Source of the DNA: Pseudomonadota bacterium
Lineage (GTDB): Bacteria; Pseudomonadota; Gammaproteobacteria; Steroidobacterales; Steroidobacteraceae
Assembly (NCBI GenBank): GCA_021816775.1
Contig: JAKAXA010000021.1
Span: 1 to 55,508, forward strand
DNA length: 55,508 nt
Reading direction: 5' to 3'
The translations under genes were made by a program, and so were the position numbers. Below, piece after piece: positions 13,580-39,639 of the stretch (position 1 is the first letter of the stretch; each line of letters starts with the position of its first letter). The notes under the pieces are model-generated. The model saw nothing but the letters and a program-made list of their open reading frames with translations. It made no database searches and was not told the origin of the DNA.

Positions 13580-14713
13580 TCAGAGCAAGCCGCGGGCGGA
13601 GGCCCAATAAAGCCTGTTATAGGCGGTCTTGAACCAATGCATGGACTTTGTCGGGGGTTTGGGGCTGGGCGGGTGCTGATAGTCGAACATCGCATAGGTG
13701 GCCCGGTCCTTGCCCGCCTCGATGAAGCAGAACACCTTGCCGTCGTAGTCGCGCACCGGTGATCCGATCTTGACCATCGCCGCCAGATTCCCCGCCAGGG
13801 TATCGGCCTCGAAGTGCGCCGTGGATCCGGCCTTGCTGATCGGCAGGTTGGTGGTGTCGCCAAGCACGAAGACGTTGTCCCGACCTTCCATGTTGAGGTG
13901 GTAGCGGTCGGTGGGGATCCAGCCGCCCTTGCCCAAGCCGTTCTTCTCGATCACTTCCATTCCCTTGTGCGCGGGAATCGAGATCAGAAGATCGTATGGC
14001 GTCTCGGTCCCTTCCTCGCTGCGGATCACCTTGCCGCGGGCGTCGACCTCCTTGACGTTGAACAATGTCTCGTAAGTGATGCCGAGCCGCTCAAACTCGG
14101 GCGTTGCCCACTTGGCGACGTTCTCCAGGCTGTGCGTGCGGCCGATCGGGTACGTGTAGTGGATCTGGGTCTTCTCGAGGATGCCACGATCCTTGAAATA
14201 GTCGTGCAGCATGAAGGTGATCTCGAGCGGCGCCATCGGACATTTGTGCGGAACACCGACGCTGATCACCACTCGCCCGCCCTGAAATTCCTGCAGGCGC
14301 TTGAACATGTGCACGGCGGACTGCTCGGTGTAGAAGCACTCGGCGGCCTCACTCAGGCCCGGCGTCCCTTCAAGGAAGATGCGCGAGCCGGTGGCAATCA
14401 CGAGCACGTCGTAAGGGTAGGTCTTGCCGCTCTTGGTACGGACCTGATGCTGATCGAGGCTGAATTCCTCGGCGGGATCCACATGGAATTCGATTTCCGG
14501 CTCAAGCAGACGCCGCTGATCGCGGTACAGCTCGTCCGGCATCATGTGCCCGAGGGCGACGTAGAGCAGCCCAGGCTGATACATGTGCCGCTCGGATGCC
14601 GAGAGCATGGTGATGCGCGCCTTGCCCGTGTGCAGCTCCTCGTGCAGCCGGCGGGCGAGGTTGTTGGCGAGTATGGTTCCCCCCATGCCGCCGCCTACGA
14701 TCAGTATCTTCAT
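13580..14713 (-). CDS. sqr: Sulfide:quinone oxidoreductase-like flavoprotein
   Basis: A 377-residue FAD-dependent oxidoreductase. The FAD motif is ILIVGGGMGG at residues 3-12, with a second site in DVLVIATGS (about 102-110) and FVLGDTT near 282. Three cysteines, C126, C158 (in VPHKCP) and C329 (in KVFCFIEAG), fall where the redox-active cysteines of SQR lie, so sulfide or sulfane-sulfur oxidation with quinone reduction is likely. A good AGGAG site precedes the ATG. Neighbours TusA and DsrE suggest the product is handed to protein carriers. A flavocytochrome or different sulfur substrate cannot be excluded. Confidence 0.82.
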   Translation of the reverse strand: MKILIVGGGMGGTILANNLARRLHEELHTGKARITMLSASERHMYQPGLLYVALGHMMPDELYRDQRRLLEPEIEFHVDPAEEFSLDQHQVRTKSGKTYPYDVLVIATGSRIFLEGTPGLSEAAECFYTEQSAVHMFKRLQEFQGGRVVISVGVPHKCPMAPLEITFMLHDYFKDRGILEKTQIHYTYPIGRTHSLENVAKWATPEFERLGITYETLFNVKEVDARGKVIRSEEGTETPYDLLISIPAHKGMEVIEKNGLGKGGWIPTDRYHLNMEGRDNVFVLGDTTNLPISKAGSTAHFEADTLAGNLAAMVKIGSPVRDYDGKVFCFIEAGKDRATYAMFDYQHPPSPKPPTKSMHWFKTAYNRLYWASARGLL

Positions 14714-14766
14714 GACAATCTCCTGAGGCTTGTGTCGTTGTTGGAGAATCCCGTGCGTTGTGCGGA

Positions 14767-19843: not shown

Positions 19844-21022
19844 GTGAGCGCATCCGCGATCGACAGCATCCCTGCCGTCGATGAGAATTCGGTCAGTCTG
19901 CCCGCGTGGATCTATCGTGATCCGGAGTTCTTCGAACTCGAGCAGGAGCGCATCTTCCGCACCAGCTGGCAGCTCGTGTGCCACCTCAGCGACGTGCCGC
20001 AGCGCGGCGATTATCACACGCTCGAGTTTCTCGGCGAGAGCGTCATCGTGGTGCGCGGCGAGGATGGACAGGTGCGCAGCTTCTACAACGTCTGCCGTCA
20101 CCGCGCCGCGCGCCTCCTGGATGGACCGAAGGGGCACTGTGGGGGGCGCATCACCTGTCCGTACCACGCCTGGACCTACGCCACGGACGGGCGCCTGATC
20201 GGCTTGCCGCAGCGCGAGGCCTTCAAAGGGCTGGATCGGACGCTGCACGGACTCGTCCCCCTCGAGCAGGAGATCTTCCTGGGATTCATCTTCGTGCGTT
20301 TCGCGCCGGGCCTGCCGGGCGTGCGCGAAATGGCTGCGCCCTATCTCGATGAGCTCAATGCCTATCGCTTCGAGGCGCTCGTGCCGCAGGGCAGAGTGAC
20401 GCTTCGCCCGCGGAGCGTGAACTGGAAGAACATCGCGGACAACTATGCCGACGGGCTGCACATCCCCGTGGCGCATCCCGGACTTACGCGCCTGTTCGGC
20501 GACACGTACGGCATCGAGGCCAGACCGTGGATCGATAGGATGTGGGGCCGGCTGAGCGAGACGCCTTCGCGTCAGTGGTCGGAGGCGCTCTATCAGCGGT
20601 TGCTGCCGCAGGTGGACCATCTGCCACAGGACCGGCAGCGTGCGTGGGTTTACTTCAAGCTCTGGCCGAACGTCGCGTTCGACATCTACCCCGACCAGGT
20701 CGACTTCATGCAGTTCCTGCCGATCTCCCCGACCGAGACCCTGATCCGCGAGATCGCTTACGTCCATCCCGACAATCGGCGCGAGATGCGCGCCGCGCGC
20801 TACCTCAATTGGCGGATCAATCGCCAGGTCAATCGGGAAGATACCGCGCTGATCGCGCGGGTGCAGGCCGGCATGGGCTCGCAAAGCTATACGGCGGGCC
20901 CCCTGGGGCAGAGCGAGGTCTGCCTGCGCAGCTTTGCGCGCCGGATGCATGCTCTCATTCCGCAGAGCCGGGAGCTGCGGGCTCCGGGCAGAGGCTGGAG
21001 CTTCGGACACCGCGATCGATGA
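19844..21022 (+). CDS. Rieske non-heme iron oxygenase, alpha subunit
   Basis: A 392-residue aromatic-ring-hydroxylating-type oxygenase. The Rieske [2Fe-2S] motif is CRHRAARLL followed by CPYHAW (about 84-106). The mononuclear iron site has the NYADGLHIPVAHP pattern with its two histidines (about 203-215). Such enzymes hydroxylate or demethylate small compounds (betaines, quaternary amines, aromatics) and need a separate reductase, none of which is nearby. The start is GTG; no strong ribosome-binding site. The substrate is unknown. Confidence 0.87.
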   Translation: MSASAIDSIPAVDENSVSLPAWIYRDPEFFELEQERIFRTSWQLVCHLSDVPQRGDYHTLEFLGESVIVVRGEDGQVRSFYNVCRHRAARLLDGPKGHCGGRITCPYHAWTYATDGRLIGLPQREAFKGLDRTLHGLVPLEQEIFLGFIFVRFAPGLPGVREMAAPYLDELNAYRFEALVPQGRVTLRPRSVNWKNIADNYADGLHIPVAHPGLTRLFGDTYGIEARPWIDRMWGRLSETPSRQWSEALYQRLLPQVDHLPQDRQRAWVYFKLWPNVAFDIYPDQVDFMQFLPISPTETLIREIAYVHPDNRREMRAARYLNWRINRQVNREDTALIARVQAGMGSQSYTAGPLGQSEVCLRSFARRMHALIPQSRELRAPGRGWSFGHRDR

Positions 21023-21553
21023 GGCCTGGGGTGTTGCCTCACGGCCCCAGCACAGCGCAGCGCGCAGCCGGGCGCGCCGATGTCGCGTCGGCTGCACGGT
21101 GAGGCGCTGACGCCCGGCTGCTCGATTCCAGCGGCCACGGCGCGTGCGCGGCATCGGGACGGCAGATTGAGCGAGGTCTGCCTTGACTCCAAATCCTGTG
21201 CCGTCGATCCGGCTCGATCAGGGGACTGCCGATCGCCCGGCGACCCATGCCTGGCGCACGCGCCGTGTTCGCCTTGGACTAAAGGACGATCGTTATGCTA
21301 ATCGTGGTCTCAGGCCAGAGTGTCGTGTCGCTTGCACGCACGATGCCCCGGTGAGCGACCGTGGGGTGCAGAACACGTCCGCAACTGCCGATGGCGATGC
21401 CTTGGATTGCTAGTCTTGGATTCATGATGGGACTCTCCTTAATGTCATGTCACGGATCGACAATGGGGGACTACTCCGACATGAGTCGGGACACACCTTC
21501 TGTCACGGTGGATGCGGGTTATCCGATGGGCAGGCTGCCGGCGTCGATGCGGG
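21023..21553. other. Spacer between Rieske and methyltransferase genes
   Basis: Convergent region of about 530 bases. Apart from the 48-codon minus-strand frame at 21279-21425, no gene is supported. Plus-strand frames here are cysteine/proline/arginine-rich and lack ribosome-binding sites. Confidence 0.4.
21279..21425 (-). CDS. Small peptide gene downstream of the methyltransferase (candidate precursor)
   Basis: A 48-residue frame not long enough for routine calling. It is preceded by a strong AAGGAG nine bases before the ATG, and an in-frame TGA upstream fixes the start. It is on the same strand as the borosin-type methyltransferase, about 130 bases downstream of its stop. The peptide begins MNPRLAIQG and ends WPETTISITIVL, a C-terminus rich in beta-branched residues like known borosin cores. 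It lacks a visible helical binding domain of the SonA type, so precursor identity is only a suggestion. Confidence 0.45.
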   Translation of the reverse strand: MNPRLAIQGIAIGSCGRVLHPTVAHRGIVRASDTTLWPETTISITIVL

Positions 21554-22462
21554 TCAGACCTGCACCGGCGATTCGTCCCGCTGTGGCGCAGAAGCAGTCA
21601 CCCACCCGGGTTTCTCAGGGTGGGTGATGCCGTAGGCCCGGCCGGGGACGCGGGATGCGCCTTTGCGCTGTGCAATGGACAGATCGTCCAGCCTGATGCC
21701 GAGATTCTCGGCCCGAGCAGGATCGGGCTCAATGTGCGTGGACGGCGGGATGTAGAGCGTGCTCAACGCGTTGATGTCCTGGCTGGGTATATCGCCGAGC
21801 GGACACTTGTGCAGAACCGGGGCGACGTTCTCGTACGCGGAGGCCTGGTACACGATCGCCTCATGATCGCTCGGGTAGGTGTGCAGCAGCGCATCCACCA
21901 GGACCTCAAGGTTCCTGCGCGACGGAGTGGCCTCAGGAGTGAGCAGTCCGACCACGCCGATCTGCCACAAGACCAGGGGAATTCGCGGATCGATGCGCGG
22001 TTTGAGCAGGACGAACCCGGTCGCTTCGTAGGTCTGCAGGCCCGGCAGCGCCGGATCGAACCCGAGGTCCGCGAACATCATGTCTTCGGCGGAGATGCCG
22101 GGCAGCATCTTGGCCTCGTGGCCTTCCTCGCGCGCCTGCACGATGGCCTCATGAGACGGAAACACGAACACGCCGGGATGGCCGTAAAACGCCGCACAGA
22201 CGCTCAGGCCCTTGCGTACGGGCTTCAGAATGGACTCGACCATGTCCTGATAGGCCCAGAGGCGGGGCTTGCCGGAGCCGGGCTCATAATGATGTCTGAG
22301 ACACTCCGACGAGGCGTTCAGCTGTTTGATGTATGCCTCGGTATGCGGGTCAGTCACGAGATAGAAGACCTTCGCCGCGGTGCCGAGGCAAAACTCGGCT
22401 TCGCGAGTGATTTGGCTGATCGCCGTGATGCCCGTGCCCACCACCGTCAATTTTCCGCTCAT
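21554..22462 (-). CDS. Borosin-type peptide backbone N-methyltransferase (SonM/OphMA-like)
   Basis: A 302-residue member of the tetrapyrrole methylase superfamily. The N-terminal strand VVGTGITAIS, the SAM-site loop AFYGHPGVFVFPSHEAI (about 91-107), LPGISAEDMMFADLG (about 120-134), YEATGF, LLWQI-like VLWQI (about 164) and STLYIPP (about 234) match split borosin methyltransferases such as SonM far better than cobalamin or siroheme enzymes. Arg67 and Tyr71 (PRLWAYQDM) fall where OphMA has catalytic Arg72 and Tyr76. These enzymes methylate backbone amides of a ribosomal peptide. A tail of about 40 residues follows the domain. CAGGAG precedes the ATG. It is divergent from the LytS gene. Confidence 0.85.
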   Translation of the reverse strand: MSGKLTVVGTGITAISQITREAEFCLGTAAKVFYLVTDPHTEAYIKQLNASSECLRHHYEPGSGKPRLWAYQDMVESILKPVRKGLSVCAAFYGHPGVFVFPSHEAIVQAREEGHEAKMLPGISAEDMMFADLGFDPALPGLQTYEATGFVLLKPRIDPRIPLVLWQIGVVGLLTPEATPSRRNLEVLVDALLHTYPSDHEAIVYQASAYENVAPVLHKCPLGDIPSQDINALSTLYIPPSTHIEPDPARAENLGIRLDDLSIAQRKGASRVPGRAYGITHPEKPGWVTASAPQRDESPVQV

Positions 22463-23109
22463 CGCAGTCTCCTGTGTGACAACGTGTCGCGTATACGATT
22501 CAGTAGGAGTCGGATAGGGTGCGCCTGCCGCGTCACGAGCGGGCGGCGGGCAGCGGCATTCCAGATCCGCCGCGCGCCGTGACGCACTACGAGCGTCGCG
22601 ACCGGGCAAATACGCGGCCCTGACCGTGAGATCGGCGCGACAGCTGAGCTCGTGTGCACCGACGGTGCGCGAGCCGATGCGAGCCGCTCGGGGCGCGAGG
22701 GGAGCGCCGAGGCGGCGCGGCAGTCTGTGCGCGGATGCGGTTGGCGATCAGCGGGTCGGGTTCTGAGCGGGGCCGGACGGAACGTCGCCTGGCAGGCGTC
22801 CGCGCGAATTTGTCCGCCACCGCAGCGGTGTCGGCGACTTCCCCGACCTTCCGTGCGTATCAATATGTGACCGCGGCGCTCCTTCACAGGTTGTATGACA
22901 TCCGGGACCATTGGGTTATGAGACACTGCGGCAAACCGGAAAGGGAAGTGGATAACAACGAGTTCGTCCCTGTTTTCGACGAGTTCGTCCCAGGCGGGTG
23001 GCTGAAAGCCCGGCGCGGGCGTATTCTGAGCCGGTGACAGAGGGGGCGCGGGTTCCTCAGGGACACCGCGGGACGCCAGCGATTCACCGTCCGGCGGAGG
23101 CCATGTGAC
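22463..23109. other. Long divergent spacer between methyltransferase and lytS
   Basis: About 650 bases with no supportable gene; the frames on both strands are arginine- or proline-rich. The end near 23000 carries the LytTR-type repeat. A TATACG element at about 22492 on the minus strand may belong to the methyltransferase promoter. Confidence 0.4.
22958..22991 (+). promoter_or_regulatory. LytTR-type operator: 13-bp direct repeat with 21-bp period
   Basis: ACGAGTTCGTCCC occurs at 22958-22970 and again, perfectly, at 22979-22991. Two directly repeated sites two helical turns apart are how LytTR response regulators bind. A possible -10 element TATTCT lies at 23022-23027. The site is 119 bases before a LytS/LytTR pair, so autoregulation is likely. 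It could also act on the divergent methyltransferase gene. Confidence 0.7.
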
Positions 23110-24255
23110 GTGAATTCCCGCTTCCACGTGCCGTTTTTCATCGTGACCGTGTTCTGGGTCTATGTGGCGGTCTGCGACGTACTCGGCGCAAACAGCACGC
23201 AGACCGCGCTCACGGCGCTGCATTTTTCGCAGGTCTTCGCACCATCGCCGGCACAGCTGCTGCAGCACCTGTTCCTCTATCCGCCGTTGCTCGGCTGCGT
23301 ATGGGGATCCACTCGTCTCGGATGGCAGCCATTCGCGCGCCGCTTCCCGCTGCAGGTGCTGCTCGGCATCGCCTTCTCCGCGCTCGCAATCCCCTGTCTG
23401 GTGTTGGGAGACATCGCGGCGGGGGATTACGCGGCCGCGCCGCAGGTGTCGGTTGCCTCGTTTGCGCAGGCGGCGGCCATCGAAGCTCCGATCTGGCTCT
23501 CGAGCGTCATGAAGTTCCTGCTCAACTATGCCTTCGCGATTGCGCTGGTCGCGGGGTTTGAGCTGTACCGCACCCTGCGGGACGAGGAAACCCATTCCGC
23601 AGCGCTCGAGCGCGCGTTCGCCACGGCCCGCCTCGCCTCGCTGCGGATGCAGCTCTCGCCGCACTCGCTGTTCAATCTGCTGCATACGATCCAGGGACAG
23701 ATCGAGTGGGATCCGGGCGCGGCGCGCGCGCTTGTGGTGCGTCTCGGGGAGTTGCTGCGCCGGCTGCTCAACGCCAGTGAGCGGGAGTTCTGGCGCCTCG
23801 GCGATGAGGTGCGCTTCGCCCGGCTCTACCTTGAGCTGCAGCAGAAGCGATTCGCCGACCGGCTTGAGGTGGTGGCGCCGGATCCGACGGGACTCACCGC
23901 CGTGTGGGTGCCGACCCTGATCCTGCAGCCTCTGGTGGAGAACGCCGTCGTGCACGGCCTCGCCGGACACCGCGCAGCGGTGACGATCACAGTGCAGGCG
24001 AGCGCCTCGGAGGATGAGCTGACGGTGCGTGTGGTGAACACGACGAGCGCTGAGGCACGCCCGCGCACGGGCGGGATTGGACTGAACAACGTGCGGGATC
24101 GGCTTGCGATCCACTTTGAGGAGCGGGCGAGCCTGCGTGCGGCCCCGGGAGGTGCGGGGCAATGGGTCGCTGAAATCCGCCTGCCATTGCTCATTGACGT
24201 GGGTGCGCAGGCGGCGCAATTGGGAGGAACCGATGCTCAACGTGATGCTTGTTGA
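23110..24255 (+). CDS. LytS/YehU-family sensor histidine kinase
   Basis: A 381-residue membrane kinase. Four hydrophobic segments lie in residues 8-150, then a His_kinase domain with the phosphoacceptor in LRMQLSPHSLFNLLHTI (His185) and the N-box LQPLVENAVVHGL (about 277). The G-box GGIGLNNVRDRL is near 323. It would autophosphorylate and pass phosphate to the overlapping LytTR regulator. The GTG start places the first membrane segment normally. Its stop lies 23 bases inside the next gene, so the two are translated together. Confidence 0.88.
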   Translation: MNSRFHVPFFIVTVFWVYVAVCDVLGANSTQTALTALHFSQVFAPSPAQLLQHLFLYPPLLGCVWGSTRLGWQPFARRFPLQVLLGIAFSALAIPCLVLGDIAAGDYAAAPQVSVASFAQAAAIEAPIWLSSVMKFLLNYAFAIALVAGFELYRTLRDEETHSAALERAFATARLASLRMQLSPHSLFNLLHTIQGQIEWDPGAARALVVRLGELLRRLLNASEREFWRLGDEVRFARLYLELQQKRFADRLEVVAPDPTGLTAVWVPTLILQPLVENAVVHGLAGHRAAVTITVQASASEDELTVRVVNTTSAEARPRTGGIGLNNVRDRLAIHFEERASLRAAPGGAGQWVAEIRLPLLIDVGAQAAQLGGTDAQRDAC

Positions 24256-25033
24256 TGATGAGGCTGCCAGCCGCCGTGCGTTGCGCGAGTGCTGCGGTCA
24301 GGAACCGGATGTGCAGATCATCGGGGAGTACGGCGGCGGCGAGGACGCATTGGAGGCAATCCGCTCGCAGCCGCCGCACGTGCTCTTTCTCGACATCAAC
24401 TTGGAGACTATGGATGGCATGACACTCGTGCGCGCGCTTGGTGAGTCGCCGTTGCCTCTGGTCGTCTTCGTGACCGCCTATGAGCAGTATGCGCTCGAGG
24501 CATTCGAAGTAAGCGCCGTCGATTACCTGCTCAAACCCTTCGACCGCAACCGGTTCCGCGGCACGATTGAGCGTGTCAGGCGGCGTATCGAGGGCCAGAG
24601 TGCAGCACAACGTCGGGACGCGCTTGACGGGATGATCGAACGCATCGAAGCGGCCGATAACGCGCGCACGGAAGAGCGACCCCATATCCTCGTGCGACTG
24701 GGCGGCCGTCTGCAGATGCTGGATCCGGAACTGATCGAATTGGTCACCGCGCACCGGAACTACGTGAAGGTCAGAGTCGGGCGGGAGACCTACACGGTGC
24801 GAAGCACGCTGCAGCACACCGAGAAGACGCTGCAAGCGCTGCCGATGGTGCGCGTCAACCGCTCCTGCCTGGTCAATCTCAACCACGTGCGGCGGATCAG
24901 CCATACGCCGCGGGGCGATATCATTCTGGTGCTCTCGGGAGGTACGACGATCACGAGCAGTCAGGGCTGCCGGGAGGCGGTCCGTCAGCAGCTCGTGCGC
25001 CTCAGTGTCGAGCCGGATTGCTATGAGACTTGA
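24233..25033 (+). CDS. LytTR-family response regulator
   Basis: A 266-residue two-domain protein. The receiver domain (1 to about 120) has VDDE, phosphoacceptor Asp54 in LFLDINL, VTAYEQ and LLKPFD. The LytTR DNA-binding domain (about 160-260) has YVKVRVGRETYTVRSTL and VRVNRSCLVNLNHV. GGGAGGAA precedes the ATG. It pairs with the kinase gene it overlaps and probably binds the 21-bp-period direct repeat at 22958-22991. Confidence 0.92.
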   Translation: MLNVMLVDDEAASRRALRECCGQEPDVQIIGEYGGGEDALEAIRSQPPHVLFLDINLETMDGMTLVRALGESPLPLVVFVTAYEQYALEAFEVSAVDYLLKPFDRNRFRGTIERVRRRIEGQSAAQRRDALDGMIERIEAADNARTEERPHILVRLGGRLQMLDPELIELVTAHRNYVKVRVGRETYTVRSTLQHTEKTLQALPMVRVNRSCLVNLNHVRRISHTPRGDIILVLSGGTTITSSQGCREAVRQQLVRLSVEPDCYET

Positions 25034-26846: not shown

Positions 26847-28265
26847 ATGGATTTGGCGCTCCTCACCCGCAGCTGCGAGCATGAATGGGAGATTCCCGCC
26901 CAGGGCGCGATGCGCGTGCCGGCGATCATCTTCGCCAGCGAGGCGCTGGTGCGGCAGATGGACCGCAAGGTCTATGAGCAGGCCGTCAATGTCGCGATGC
27001 TGCCCGGGATCGTCACCGCTTCCTTCGTGATGCCCGATGCCCACTGGGGCTATGGATTTCCGATCGGCGGCGTCGCCGCCTTCGATGCGGACGAAGGGGG
27101 CGTGGTGTCGGCCGGCGGCGTTGGGTTCGACGTCTCCTGCGGCGTCCGCTGCCTGCATACCGGCTTGAAGAGCGCAGCGCTGCGCGCCGATCAGGAGGAG
27201 CTCGCCGATGTGCTCTACGCCGAGATCCCCGTTGGCGTCGGCAGCACAGGCGGCATTCATCTCGGCGCCTCGGAAACCGACGCCATGCTGGCCGGCGGCG
27301 CGAGCTGGGCCGTGCAGAACGGCTGGGGCGAAGCCGAGGATCTGGAGCGCATCGAGGAGCGCGGCCAGATGAGCGGCGCCGACCCGCACAGTGTGTCGGT
27401 ACGCGCGAAGCAGCGCCAGCAGGATCAGATGGGCACCCTCGGCAGCGGCAATCACTATCTGGAGGTGCAGCATGTCACGGGCATCTTTGATGGTGCGATT
27501 GCGCGTCAGTTCGGACTCGAGATGGACGACGTCGTGGTGATGATCCACTGCGGCTCGCGGGGCCTCGGCCATCAGATCGGGACGGATTTCCTCAAGCGCA
27601 TGGCGATGGCGGCAAGCGCCTACGGGATCGCGCTTCCCGATCGCGAGCTCGCCTGTGCACCGATCCGCTCCGAGCTCGGCCAGAGCTATCTCGGTGCCAT
27701 GCGCGCCGCAATCAACTGCGCGCTCGCCAACCGGCAGATCCTGACCCATCTGGTGCGCCGGGCATTTGCCCACGTGCTGCCCGAGGCGAGGCTTTCTCTC
27801 CTCTACGACGTCTCGCACAATACCTGCAAGCTCGAACATCACGGCGGGCGCAGCCTCTATGTGCACCGCAAAGGCGCCACGCGCGCCTTCAGTCCCGGTC
27901 ACCCCGAGCTGCCTGAGGCGCTGCGCGCCGCGGGCCAGCCGGTGCTGATCGGCGGATCCATGGGAACCGGCTCTTACATTCTGGCCGGGACGCACAGCTC
28001 GCAGCGCCAGGCTTTCAGCTCGGCCTGTCACGGCGCTGGCCGTGCGATGAGCCGGCATCAGGCCTCGCGGACGTGGCGGGGCCGCGAGGTGATCGAGGCC
28101 CTCGCCGCCCGGGGAATCACCGTGCGCAGTCCGTCCATGCGGGGCGTCGCGGAAGAGGCGCCCGAGGCCTATAAAGACGTGGTTGCCGTGGTGGATTCGG
28201 CGGAAGCGTCGGGACTTGCCCGCAAGGTCGCCCGGGTCGAGCCGCTCATCTGCATCAAGGGATAG
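26847..28265 (+). CDS. rtcB: RNA-splicing ligase RtcB
   Basis: A 472-residue RtcB, which joins RNA 2',3'-cyclic phosphate (or 3'-phosphate) ends to 5'-OH ends using GTP and Mn2+. Visible landmarks: MPDAHWGYGFPIGG (about 60), the metal cysteine in GFDVSCGVRC (about 92-101), GTLGSGNHYLEVQ (about 195), IHCGSRGLGHQ (about 233), HNTCKLEHH (about 325) and a closing ICIKG-type end. The ATG four bases after the archease stop is used. Confidence 0.94.
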   Translation: MDLALLTRSCEHEWEIPAQGAMRVPAIIFASEALVRQMDRKVYEQAVNVAMLPGIVTASFVMPDAHWGYGFPIGGVAAFDADEGGVVSAGGVGFDVSCGVRCLHTGLKSAALRADQEELADVLYAEIPVGVGSTGGIHLGASETDAMLAGGASWAVQNGWGEAEDLERIEERGQMSGADPHSVSVRAKQRQQDQMGTLGSGNHYLEVQHVTGIFDGAIARQFGLEMDDVVVMIHCGSRGLGHQIGTDFLKRMAMAASAYGIALPDRELACAPIRSELGQSYLGAMRAAINCALANRQILTHLVRRAFAHVLPEARLSLLYDVSHNTCKLEHHGGRSLYVHRKGATRAFSPGHPELPEALRAAGQPVLIGGSMGTGSYILAGTHSSQRQAFSSACHGAGRAMSRHQASRTWRGREVIEALAARGITVRSPSMRGVAEEAPEAYKDVVAVVDSAEASGLARKVARVEPLICIKG

Positions 28266-35093: not shown

Positions 35094-36029
35094 TCAGACC
35101 GCGCGGCCGTAGTAGAGCGCCGAGACGTGCGTCGCCTGGGCGAAGAAGAGCCAACGCTCGGTGAGCAGGCCGAGCGCGGCGCAGGCCACGGCGAGCGCGC
35201 TGCTCGCCAGTGGGAAGGTGCCGAGCCGGGCGAGGAGGCTGAAGATGAGCGGCAGCGCGAATGCCACGACGAGTGCGATGCGGCGCAGCTTCGCGGCGTG
35301 GCGGCGGGCGACCTGGAAGCCCATCTCCCGCAGAATGAAATTCTCGGTGAAATGCGGCGCATCGAGCGGCCGTGCGGCGGTGCCCTTGGGCAGCCCGATC
35401 GCGCTGGCGAGACTCGCAATCGGACTCTGCGCATCCACGTGGCGCCAATAGGCGAGCTTGGCGATGAGCGCGCAGAGCGCCCCGAGCGCGGCCAGGGTGG
35501 CCGCCAGCGCGGCGGTGCCGAAGGCGAGGGTATGCAGCAGCGCGAAGAGCGTCGCGCCGGAGTAGAGCGCGTAGATCAGATAATCCGGGGCGGTATGCCG
35601 GTTGTGCCATTGTCGGATGGGCTTCAGGCTCGCGTAGATCATCGCGGTGCAGTAGACCGTGCCGAGCGAGGCAAGCGCCGTGACCACCCCGAGTGAGCGC
35701 GCCGCCGGCGACCCGGGGGCGCGGTACTGCGCCCAGGCGAACGCCAGGGCGATCGGGTACGTGAGCACCGCGGCGAGCCCCTCGCGCGAGAGCCAGGAGG
35801 AGCGCCACTGGCTGAACGCCCGCCAGGCCCGCTCCTTGCGCCCGAGGTGCAGCGTCGAGGCGATCAGTCCGAGGGTGGCGAGAATCAAACCGACGCCGAC
35901 GCCGGCGAGCACGAGCAGCCGGGCCGCAGGTGGCGCGCCTGCCGCTACGTACAGCCCGAGCCAGGTGAGCAGCCCGTAGGCGAAGCCGGTCAGCGTCGTC
36001 AGCAGCAGAACCGAGGCGGCGGGCTTCAC
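35094..36029 (-). CDS. soeC: SoeC-type membrane anchor of sulfite dehydrogenase
   Basis: A 311-residue polytopic protein of the DmsC/NrfD-like anchor group, with about eight hydrophobic segments and a conserved-looking YASLKPIRQWHN loop (about 170). It begins with GTG overlapping the soeB stop (GTGA). It would anchor the SoeAB dimer to the cytoplasmic face and pass electrons to quinone. A DMSO- or polysulfide-reductase-type anchor is the alternative; context favours SoeC. Confidence 0.82.
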   Translation of the reverse strand: MKPAASVLLLTTLTGFAYGLLTWLGLYVAAGAPPAARLLVLAGVGVGLILATLGLIASTLHLGRKERAWRAFSQWRSSWLSREGLAAVLTYPIALAFAWAQYRAPGSPAARSLGVVTALASLGTVYCTAMIYASLKPIRQWHNRHTAPDYLIYALYSGATLFALLHTLAFGTAALAATLAALGALCALIAKLAYWRHVDAQSPIASLASAIGLPKGTAARPLDAPHFTENFILREMGFQVARRHAAKLRRIALVVAFALPLIFSLLARLGTFPLASSALAVACAALGLLTERWLFFAQATHVSALYYGRAV

Positions 36030-36766
36030 CGGCTGAGCGCCTTGTCGAGCAGTTTCAACAGCGCCCCGCCGATGCCCTGGCTGGCCGCGCCGCTCGTCTC
36101 GCGCGGCGTGGTCTGGATCTGCGCCCGTCGCGGCGGCAGGTACTTGTTGGTCGGCCGATAGCCGAGCTCCTCGAGCAGATCGGTGCCGCCGCGCTGGGCG
36201 ACGAGCTGCGAGACCTTGCTGTGCGGATCGGCGAGATCGCCGAAATGACGCGCCTTGGCCGGACAGGTCGCGACACACGCCGGCTCGCGCTCCGCCTCGG
36301 GCAGGCTCTCGTCGTAGATGCGGTCGATGCACAGGGTGCACTTGCGCATCACTCCGCTGTCCTCGTCGAACTCGCGCGCGCCGTAGGGACAGGCCCAGGA
36401 ACACAGCTTGCAGCCGATGCACAGGTCGGTGTCGATGAGGACGATGCCGTCCTCGGCGCGCTTGAAGGAGGCCCCCGTGGGGCAGACCGTCACGCACAGC
36501 GGGTTCTCGCAGTGCAGACACGAGCGGGGGAAGTTCACCGTGCGGGAGCAGCCGTCCGATCCGGTCTCGTACGAGTGGATGCGGTTGAACCAGACCCCGT
36601 CGGGCTTCTCGCCATACTTGTCGTAATCCGGGAGGATCCCCGCCTCGCCGCCGGTGTTCCACTCCTTGCAGTTGACCGCGCACGCATGGCAGCCGACACA
36701 CGTATCGAGGTCGATTACCAGGCCCATCTTGCGGGCCTCGGGCCCGCGCTGCGGCAACATCGTCAT
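36026..36766 (-). CDS. soeB: SoeB-type iron-sulfur subunit
   Basis: A 246-residue DmsB/NrfC-like protein with four [4Fe-4S] cysteine groups: CVGCHACAVNC (about 23-33), CLHCENPLCVTVCP (about 83-96), CIGCKLCSWACP (about 116-127) and CTLCIDRI...CVATCP (about 143-167). It relays electrons from the molybdenum subunit to the anchor. The start overlaps the soeA stop by four bases (ATGA), and the stop overlaps soeC, so all three are translationally coupled. No signal peptide, consistent with a cytoplasmic complex. Confidence 0.9.
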   Translation of the reverse strand: MTMLPQRGPEARKMGLVIDLDTCVGCHACAVNCKEWNTGGEAGILPDYDKYGEKPDGVWFNRIHSYETGSDGCSRTVNFPRSCLHCENPLCVTVCPTGASFKRAEDGIVLIDTDLCIGCKLCSWACPYGAREFDEDSGVMRKCTLCIDRIYDESLPEAEREPACVATCPAKARHFGDLADPHSKVSQLVAQRGGTDLLEELGYRPTNKYLPPRRAQIQTTPRETSGAASQGIGGALLKLLDKALSR

Positions 36767-39639
36767 GCGGCGCTCTCGGCGGGTCGTTTGATCCTGAGCG
36801 GATTGGCCCCGAGGCGCGGGGCGGTCTCATCGGGCGTGTCGGGCGCGCAGCGCTCGAGGCGCACGGTCAGATCGAACCAGGCGGCCTGGCCGGTCACCGG
36901 ATCGGAGTTCGAGTGCGCGGCCTCGCCGGGCTCACCCGGCAGAAACTCCGAGATCACGTGATTCAGCAGGAAGCCGCGGCGGAATTCCGGGGCGTCGCGC
37001 TCGAGGCCCCAGGCGCCGGCGCGCTTGCCGATCGCGTTCCAGGTCCACACGGTGTTGCGGTTGACGCCGCTCATGGTGCGCGCGCGCGCCTTGAGGCGCC
37101 CGCTGCGCGAGTCGACCCACACCCAATCCTCATCCTCGATGCCGAGCTCGGCGGCGAGCTCGCGGTGCAGGTAAATGCGGTTCTCGGGCAGGATCTGGCG
37201 CAGCCACGCATTGTGCGAGCCCCAGGAGTGATACATCGCCATGGGGCGCTGCGTGATGGCGTGCAGCGGATAGCGCCCGTCGCGGCTCGCGGCCTGCTCG
37301 AGCGGAGCGTACCAGATGGGCAGCGGATCGAAGTACCGGCGCACCCTCGCGCGCAGCCTCGGCGGCGGAACGTGCGCTCCGTGGCCCTCGGCGGCCAGGC
37401 GAAAGCGCTGCAGCGGCTCGCTGTAGAGCTGCAGCACGATGGGCGCGCTCGAGCCGATGAAGTCCATCTCGCGCGCGCCGTTGAGGTAGGCCTGGTTGGC
37501 GTACTTGTAATAGAGCTGTTCCGGGGGCAGATGGTGGACCCAGAACCCGCCGTTCTCGATGTAACGGCGCAGCTGCTCGGGATTCGGCTCGCCTCGGCCC
37601 ATCGCGCGGCCATCCGCGCCCCGAAAGCCCGCCAGCGGACCGATGCCCGCGGCGCGCTGGTGACGCACGATGTAATCGGCGTACGAGTGGTAGAGCGGTT
37701 GGCCCTGCGCATCGGCGAAGTCCTTCAGGCCGAGCCGGCCGGCGATCTCGATGAGCACGTCCTGGAAGGCGCGCACGTCGCGCTCGGGCTTGAGCACCGG
37801 CACGCGGATGGCATCGCCCGGGCCGTGCGCCGAGCCGATCGGCCGGTCGAGCAGCGAGATGCAGTCGTAGCGCTCGAGGTAGGTCGTGTCCGGCAGCACC
37901 AGATCGGCGTAAGCGACCGTCTCGGAGGCGAAGGCGTCGGCGACGACGACGAAGGGGATGCGGTACTCGCCCTGCTCGTCGGTCGCGCTCAGCATGCGAA
38001 TCGACTCGCCGGGGTTCATGGCGGAGTTCCATGCCATGTTCGACATGAAGAAGAAGAGCGTGTCGATCTTCTGCGGCCCGGCCTCGAAGGCGCGGGCAAT
38101 CACCATGTGCATCAGCCCGTGAATCGCAAGGGGCGCCTCCCAGGAGAAGGCGCGGTCGAGGCGCAGCGCCTCGCCCTGAGCATCGACCAGCAGATCCTCC
38201 GGCCGCATCGGACATCCGAGCGGCGCGGCGTTGAGCGGCGCGCCGGGAGCACCGGCCGGGCGCCCCGGCGGGATGCCGCCGGGAATCGGCTTCGGGTACG
38301 GTGATTTGTAGCGCCAGGAGCCCGGGGTGTCGACCGCCCCGAGCAGCATCTGCAGCACATGGATCGCCCGGCACGTATGAAATCCATTCGAGTGCGCGGA
38401 GATCCCGCGCATGGCGTGGATCGCCACCGGCCGGCCCACCATGTGCGTGTGGCGGCGTCCGGCGGCGTCCGTCCAGGGCTGCTCGAGCACCACGGGTTGA
38501 TTGAAGGCCACCTCGATGATTTCATCGGCAAGGCGGCGGATGGTCGCGGCGGCAACGCCGCAGCGCTCAGCCACCGCCTCTGGCGCGTACTCGGCGGCGA
38601 GATAGCGCTCGGCGAGCAGCGCGAAGGCGGGGCGGGCGCGCCGTCCGTCGGGCAGGACGAACGTGCCGCTCAGCGCCGGATCGATGCCGGTCGCGCTCGC
38701 GCTCGCGAGCGACCCGGTGGCGCGGTCGAAGGCGAGCTCGCTCCCCTGCGCATTGCGCGCGATGAGCCCGTGCTCGGCGCCGCCGGCATCGTCGATCACC
38801 AGATGATGCGCGTTGGTGTAGCGCACGAGGAACTCGGTGTCGATCCGGCCCGCCTCGAGCAGGCAGTGAATGAGCGCGAAGACCAGGAGCCCGTCGGTGC
38901 CCGGGGTCACCGCGACGAACTCATCGGCGATCGCTGAATAACCGGTGCGCACCGGATTGAAGGAGACGATCTTCGCGCCGCGCGCCTTGAGGCGCGAGAG
39001 GCCGAGCTTGATCGGATTGGAATCGTGGTCTTCCGCCACACCGAACAGCAGAAACAGCCGCGCGTACTCCCAGTCCGGCTCGCCGAACTCCCAGAACGCC
39101 CCGCCGACCGAATAGAGCCCGGCGGCGGCCATGTTGACCGAGCAGAACCCGCCGTGGGCGGCGTAATTGATCGTGCCGAACATGCGCGCGAAGTGGCCCG
39201 TGAGCGACTGCGACTGGTCGCGGCCGGTGAACAGCGCGAGGCGGCTGGGGTCGCTCGCCCGGATTGCCGCGAGCCGCTCAGTTATGATGCGCATCGCCTC
39301 GTCCCAGGAGATGGCCTCGAAGGAGCCCGACCCGCGCGGCCCGACGCGCTTCAGCGGCGTTGTCAGGCGCGCCGGGGAAACCGCCGTCATGATTCCCGCC
39401 GATCCCTTGGCGCAGAGCACCCCACGATTGATCGGGTGATTGCGGTTGCCTTCGATATAGCGCAGGCGGCCGTTCTCGAGATGCACCTTGATGCCGCAGC
39501 GGCAGGCGCACATGTAACAGGTCGTGTAGGCGACCGACTTGGCGCTGGCCGGAACACTCGACTCGCTGTCCGTGCCGGCGGCGGCGCCGGATCGCGGCGG
39601 CTCTACGCCCTCAATGACCGATGGTGGCATGCCTGTCAC
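36763..39639 (-). CDS. soeA: SoeA-type molybdopterin sulfite dehydrogenase, catalytic subunit
   Basis: A 958-residue CISM-family molybdoenzyme. An N-terminal [4Fe-4S] motif uses Cys41, Cys44, Cys48 and Cys76 (CYMCACRC, then GVLCAKG), followed by the molybdopterin domains and a C-terminal molydop-binding domain (LHAITQRPMAMYHSWGSHN, about 800). There is no twin-arginine signal, so it is cytoplasmic, as in SoeABC, which oxidises sulfite directly to sulfate. Length, subunit order and the Apr/Sat neighbours support SoeA over polysulfide or thiosulfate reductase (which carry TAT signals). Confidence 0.87.
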   Translation of the reverse strand: MTGMPPSVIEGVEPPRSGAAAGTDSESSVPASAKSVAYTTCYMCACRCGIKVHLENGRLRYIEGNRNHPINRGVLCAKGSAGIMTAVSPARLTTPLKRVGPRGSGSFEAISWDEAMRIITERLAAIRASDPSRLALFTGRDQSQSLTGHFARMFGTINYAAHGGFCSVNMAAAGLYSVGGAFWEFGEPDWEYARLFLLFGVAEDHDSNPIKLGLSRLKARGAKIVSFNPVRTGYSAIADEFVAVTPGTDGLLVFALIHCLLEAGRIDTEFLVRYTNAHHLVIDDAGGAEHGLIARNAQGSELAFDRATGSLASASATGIDPALSGTFVLPDGRRARPAFALLAERYLAAEYAPEAVAERCGVAAATIRRLADEIIEVAFNQPVVLEQPWTDAAGRRHTHMVGRPVAIHAMRGISAHSNGFHTCRAIHVLQMLLGAVDTPGSWRYKSPYPKPIPGGIPPGRPAGAPGAPLNAAPLGCPMRPEDLLVDAQGEALRLDRAFSWEAPLAIHGLMHMVIARAFEAGPQKIDTLFFFMSNMAWNSAMNPGESIRMLSATDEQGEYRIPFVVVADAFASETVAYADLVLPDTTYLERYDCISLLDRPIGSAHGPGDAIRVPVLKPERDVRAFQDVLIEIAGRLGLKDFADAQGQPLYHSYADYIVRHQRAAGIGPLAGFRGADGRAMGRGEPNPEQLRRYIENGGFWVHHLPPEQLYYKYANQAYLNGAREMDFIGSSAPIVLQLYSEPLQRFRLAAEGHGAHVPPPRLRARVRRYFDPLPIWYAPLEQAASRDGRYPLHAITQRPMAMYHSWGSHNAWLRQILPENRIYLHRELAAELGIEDEDWVWVDSRSGRLKARARTMSGVNRNTVWTWNAIGKRAGAWGLERDAPEFRRGFLLNHVISEFLPGEPGEAAHSNSDPVTGQAAWFDLTVRLERCAPDTPDETAPRLGANPLRIKRPAESAA

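Follow-up and report, generated by a model that had tools for sequence, protein, structure and literature searches.

A borosin-type N-methyltransferase gene with a candidate 48-residue precursor, a divergent LytTR two-component pair and a direct repeat that recurs at a lasso peptide cluster in a Steroidobacteraceae bacterium

The window analyzed here is a 55,508-nucleotide stretch of a Steroidobacteraceae bacterium (assembly GCA_021816775.1, contig JAKAXA010000021.1), and both sequence and a structure model strongly support that its gene at 21554-22462 encodes a borosin-type peptide backbone alpha-N-methyltransferase (MT). Beside this gene we found a conserved 48-codon gene for a candidate precursor peptide, a divergently transcribed two-component pair, and a direct repeat, situated between the MT and this pair, that recurs at an unlinked lasso peptide cluster of the same genome. 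We propose, with a probability of about 0.75, that this is a distinct form of split borosin cassette, one without a borosin-binding domain (BBD), and that its own two-component pair acts on lasso genes as well. The elements are as follows.

21554-22462, minus strand: gene of the borosin-type MT, 302 aa, assigned from sequence, fold and active-site residues
21557-21670, minus strand: C-terminal extension of the MT, residues 265-302, past the SonM-like domain, placed by alignment
21279-21425, minus strand: 48-codon gene of the candidate borosin precursor, 128 nt 3' of the MT stop
21435-21440, minus strand: ribosome-binding site AAGGAG of the 48-codon gene
21282-21305, minus strand: predicted core, the last 8 peptide residues (TISITIVL), V/I/L-rich in 18 aligned rows
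22958-22991, minus strand: direct repeat GGGACGAACTCGT-N8-GGGACGAACTCGT, period 21, between kinase and MT
23110-24255, plus strand: sensor histidine kinase (PF06580), divergent from the MT and paralogous to a genus-wide kinase
24233-25033, plus strand: response regulator with receiver and LytTR DNA-binding domains, overlapping the end of the kinase gene

The MT reading frame starts with ATG at 22462, ends with a stop codon at 21554-21556 and is preceded by AGGAG, which bears out the ribosome-binding site claimed in a preliminary description of this DNA; the strand, minus, was absent from that description. The borosin assignment had been made there from a motif-by-motif likeness to SonM of Shewanella and from an Arg/Tyr pair at catalytic positions, and both observations were confirmed: the motifs YGHPGVF (93-99), PGISAE (121-126), ADLG (131-134), WQI (166-168) and IPP (238-240) are all found in the MT, and R67, Y71, Y93, G94, H95, W166 and Q167 are invariant across an alignment of 114 rows. 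Arg67, Tyr71 and Tyr93, all three present in the MT, are active-site residues in SonM numbering (PMC8429565). A phmmer search of PDB sequences matched dbOphM/OphMA at E 6.5e-54 and SonM at E 1.6e-48; borosin enzymes made up 25 of the 27 distinct sequences matched, all at E 1e-47 or better, and the remaining two were HicA (E 0.22 and 0.24). Structure comparison with an AlphaFold model, whose predicted local distance difference test score (pLDDT) was 86 with the 114-row alignment and 44 with 15 near relatives, gave OphMA and SonM as the nearest solved folds. We assign the gene to the borosin type because these enzymes are closest by sequence and fold and the Arg67/Tyr71 pair is kept; best matches to cobalamin, siroheme or diphthine methyltransferases with the pair gone, named earlier as the outcome that would count against it, were not observed. 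The MT is the sole match of its kind in its own genome (G000). In the C-terminal extension, the segment 271-288 (R..G.AYGITHPE.PGWV) is conserved across the 15 nearest homologs in the alignment, and this tail is possibly a clade-specific substrate-recognition element. The tail is also present in P0026, an MT of 57% identity.

The preliminary description had also stated that no other biosynthetic gene is joined to the MT gene and had named no precursor. This does not hold: a conserved 48-aa candidate precursor is encoded directly downstream, and the two-component pair lies upstream. A contig scan for MT loci retained 80 of 129 loci, nine of which (L004-L012) fall in the MT clade and 71 of which are more distant. 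We compared the window reading frames of at least 25 aa and no more than 4 kb from the MT with the nine clade loci, and those common to 8-9 of them were the kinase, the regulator, the MT, their antisense or overlapping frames, and the 48-codon frame. The latter is exactly 48 codons long in all nine clade loci with downstream DNA (the window, L004-L010 and L012); L011, whose contig stops within the MT, was left out of this count. The nonsynonymous rate (dN) was below the synonymous rate (dS) in 31 of 36 pairs, and identity was 0.70 at codon position 2, 0.61 at position 1 and 0.52 at position 3. Two profile searches of a protein database, in which lengths of about 26-84 aa were admitted, returned 18 clusters, all of 48 aa. 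In the 18-row alignment (the window plus 17), M1, R4, G13, G16, R17, R30, A31 and P38 are invariant, and position 42 is I/V, 44 I/V, 46 I/L/V and 47 V/I in every row. V, I and L make up 74% of positions 41-48 and 22% of the earlier part. As expected of a split borosin, a separate small gene adjoins the enzyme, and its peptide is probably the MT substrate.

The peptide matched no Pfam family at E values of up to 10 (three peptides tested), its profile matched no PDB chain, and no second copy was found in G000, where other matches had E 0.09 or worse. A profile of seven small genes from the more distant borosin loci, judged by eye to resemble SonA with its BBD leader, matched none of the 18 peptides. 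Within 21000-23300, one promoter-like match overlaps the peptide start (shuffled sequences gave a mean of 0.4) and one terminator-like match lies on the opposite strand; the RNA fold 3' of the peptide gene had z = -0.02, and no genes downstream of it are common to the whole clade. A LigA/SonA-type precursor candidate elsewhere in G000 was rejected, the lone match over cut-off (contig C36) being LigA-like and followed by a LigB-like dioxygenase, with the MT located elsewhere.

Among 58 same-genus genomes, the 48-aa peptide is encoded in 10 (G000, G006, G008, G013, G020, G023, G024, G026, G041 and G048), a set that coincides with the genomes whose MT is at least 69% identical, the MT of G024 being split across two contigs. 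Co-occurrence of the MT gene with a small gene, put forward earlier as a check, thus proved strict for the 48-codon gene (10/10 vs 0/48). The MTs of G010, G039 and G050, of the same genus, are 40-42% identical and have no 48-aa peptide. Sampling across the order (296 genomes, 22 from the host genus, with first-look candidates scored in part) turned up the peptide in five genomes, every one of the host genus. None of the 71 more distant borosin loci had a match to the peptide (best E 0.25) or, at 1e-10, to the kinase or the regulator; small genes judged by eye to be SonA-like adjoin the MT at ten of them.

The loci of G039 (L147), G010 (L148) and G050 (L149) are of another borosin type and carry small genes with a CCL motif, most of which have long acidic runs (acidic tails judged by eye). 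A separate group of 14 proteins of 444-528 aa (P0016-P0025, P0027, P0050, P0059 and P0104) each contains two borosin-type MT halves. Arg67, Tyr71 and Trp166 are retained in the first half of all 14; in the second half the Tyr71 and Trp166 positions are changed in all 14 and Arg67 in 13. To judge by these residues, the proteins are apparently fused pairs of an active and an inactive MT in a dimeric family.

Domain matches identified the divergent genes as a histidine kinase and a receiver-LytTR regulator, the two parts of a LytTR two-component system; the best NCBIfam model of the regulator was BtsR, under cut-off. The kinase gene is divergent to the MT in all ten clade loci (the window plus nine), and the regulator stands alongside in eight of the nine others, the contig of L004 ending before it. 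A related kinase was present in 48 of the 58 genomes, with two matches in nine of the ten MT genomes (G006 has one) and also in four of the 48 other genomes (G021, G029, G042 and G053). The ten kinases linked to an MT grouped together (100/100) in a 38-kinase tree, apart from eight resident kinases of MT genomes and from 20 further kinases; three branches of the linked group were flagged as long. No obvious peptide gene was found near the resident kinases at three loci, one with too little upstream DNA.

The sites of LytTR regulators typically consist of repeats with a period of about 21 bp. Its position, period and conservation suggest that the direct repeat at 22958-22991 is likely the operator of the LytTR regulator. 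Scored against the doubled consensus, the ten MT loci reached 22-26 of 26, and the best score in the 71 unrelated loci (983 kb) was 20. The 3.9-Mb genome G000 contains the repeat, at no more than 3 mismatches, in two places, the window site and contig C25 at 27795-27849, and the reversed pattern gave no match there. Across the 58 genomes there were 27 matches in 17 genomes, and the 14 with 0-1 mismatch were confined to eight of the ten MT genomes.

The C25 site adjoins genes for a lasso B2 protein (NF033537, 68 bits vs a cut-off of 33), a C protein of the Asn-synthase type (above the Pfam threshold, below those of the NCBIfam cyclase models), an Atxe2-like isopeptidase (under cut-off), an ATP-binding cassette (ABC) transporter and a short precursor, so that the leader peptidase B2, the cyclase C and the precursor of a lasso cluster are all represented. 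Precursors picked by eye at nine loci share G.V...TKG and a Glu at core position 8; the C25 cluster fits the rule for lasso precursors, Thr at -2, Gly1 and Glu8. Orthologous lasso clusters with the repeat (23-26 of 26) were found in G023, G006, G026 and G020, with C protein identities down to about 42-43%. In G048, the repeat lies at a contig end, again by this transporter, and another contig opens with the lasso genes, which suggests that the two are adjacent. A lasso C protein of at least 43% identity was present in seven of the ten MT genomes vs three of the 48 others; when more distant C proteins were counted, 26 of the 58 genomes had a match. At the lasso clusters of G036 and G049, outside the MT clade, the repeat was not found even with looser tests, and the third such genome, G055, was excluded because its cluster is cut at a contig end. 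This contrast between genomes with and without the MT clade is small in number, and we place the weight on the recurrence at orthologous clusters and on the rarity of the site.

The lasso region itself is double at several loci. L153 (G000 C25), L179, L182, L183 and L217 each have another lasso B, divergent from the first, on the far side, and all of them except L153 have a second C there too. Between the lasso parts of L153, L179, L182 and L183 stand an ABC transporter and a 385-aa DnaA-C-like protein, the latter conserved.

From these results we propose that the MT would act on the 48-aa peptide, methylating backbone amides within its hydrophobic C-terminal end, at about residues 42-48; the methylated peptide would then be processed and exported. 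No BBD was detected in the peptide, and we therefore suggest that the substrate would be recognized by another element, perhaps the conserved N-terminal part of the peptide together with the C-terminal extension of the MT. The divergent LytTR system would drive expression of the cassette, its regulator binding both the repeat between the transcription units and the same repeat by the unlinked lasso cluster, so that one sensor would turn on two ribosomal peptide products. Such a second target suggests a role in competition or signalling.

Several points weigh against this proposal. Methylation of the peptide by the MT is a prediction, the MT tail was modelled with low confidence, the peptide gene has dN above dS in four of the 36 pairs and an undefined dS in one, and the cassette has neither a protease nor an exporter gene. 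The repeat consensus was derived from the same MT loci that it scores, and two of them (L005 and L009) reach only 22 of 26. G041 has both the MT and a lasso cluster and no repeat there, looser tests included; three MT genomes (70, 75 and 87% complete) yielded no such lasso cluster; and the orientation of the repeat and its distance to the lasso genes vary between genomes. A strong copy in G006 (L180, C29 near 6322, 1 mismatch) lies off any lasso or borosin locus. The genes flanking that copy are of unknown function.

Another explanation extends the proposal to an autoinducer: the cleaved, N-methylated C-terminal peptide would be the ligand of the co-encoded kinase, amplifying its own cassette and switching on the lasso cluster. 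The constant divergent position of the kinase and the placing of the repeat, both between kinase and MT and at the lasso clusters, agree with this. The linked kinases are also more divergent than the resident ones (10 linked and 8 resident rows), most of all in the sensor half (mean identity 62% vs 86%; kinase half, 69% vs 88%), as expected if linked kinases track a changing peptide. However, the peptide C-termini are themselves fairly conserved, a ligand role of the peptide is purely hypothetical and export and cleavage genes are missing from the cassette, and we consider this explanation conceivable but unlikely.

Somewhat more doubtful is the view that the repeat merely autoregulates the two-component genes and that its lasso copies are coincidental or belong to another regulator. 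Seven genomes without the MT clade, among them G010 with its distant MT, hold nine repeat matches, each with 3 mismatches, and seven of these weaker copies lie upstream of the resident, genus-wide kinase gene at a distance of up to about 300 bp, a distribution that speaks for such a role. Coincidence is nevertheless hard to reconcile with only two places and no reversed match in G000, with the recurrence at the orthologous lasso clusters of four other genomes despite the low C identity, and with the lack of the repeat at the two testable lasso clusters of non-MT-clade genomes.

Less probable again is that the 48-aa peptide is a small regulator or immunity peptide and that the MT methylates something else. 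The failure to detect a BBD would fit this, as would the fact that a substrate role is read from position, co-occurrence and composition. On the other side, the peptide is adjacent, strictly co-occurring and V/I/L-rich at its C-terminus, no other small frame in the comparison is common to at least eight of nine clade loci, barring antisense or overlapping frames, and no LigA-type gene adjoins an MT in G000. A role of the MT as a methylase of tetrapyrroles or other small molecules is very improbable, since membership in the general tetrapyrrole methylase family PF00590 and three NCBIfam matches (YabN and cobalamin models, each far under cut-off) stand against a far closer likeness to OphMA and SonM in sequence and fold and the retained Arg67/Tyr71 pair.

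The proposed borosin cassette resembles the type IV split borosin SonM/SonA of Shewanella oneidensis (PMC8429565) in its free MT of the same family, its active-site residues and the separate small peptide gene beside the enzyme. It differs in the precursor, which has 48 aa and no detected SonA-like BBD, in the C-terminal extension of about 40 residues on the MT, and in the linked two-component system and the repeat shared with a lasso cluster. The MT domain is also like that of the fused borosin OphMA, the omphalotin synthase (E about 1e-53), whose core peptide is in the same chain, whereas the candidate core here is a separate gene. PMC11395268 lists 11 borosin types (0-X) with a type XI added, and one of its figure legends describes 'class 4' split borosins with no identified BBD. 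As far as that legend goes, the present cassette is like this class in having separate enzyme and core-peptide genes and no BBD. To this class belong the types V-X, reportedly due to Imani 2022 and Cho 2022, and the 48-aa precursor family may already be listed among them. BtsSR/YehUT and AgrCA-type LytTR systems likewise combine a sensor kinase with a LytTR regulator, but the pair here is encoded with borosin genes. Proteobacterial lasso clusters with an Atxe2-type isopeptidase share the B2 and C proteins, the isopeptidase-like protein and TKG/Glu8 precursors with the G000 cluster; what sets the latter apart is its direct repeat, also present at an unlinked borosin cassette. In the portions of the literature retrieved, nothing on point joined borosins with a two-component system, a histidine kinase, quorum sensing or acid mine drainage; in the retrieved part of PMC9505594 both searched terms are present, for different pathways.

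The host had been called a chemolithotrophic sulfur oxidizer, which was not established. The window encodes a sulfide:quinone-reductase-like protein (13583-14716) and a PhsA-like molybdopterin oxidoreductase with an iron-sulfur subunit (36026-39639), all under NCBIfam cut-offs, and a search of the G000 genome found no SoxB, so sulfur oxidation by this host is weakly supported.

To our knowledge, no bacterial borosin has a settled biological role. Substrate recognition by borosin enzymes could be usefully studied with so small a candidate precursor, in which no binding domain was detected. Should the peptide act as an autoinducer, one ribosomal peptide would signal for another. The linked two-component system, with a likely operator common to a lasso cluster, may offer a testable route to the function of a bacterial borosin.
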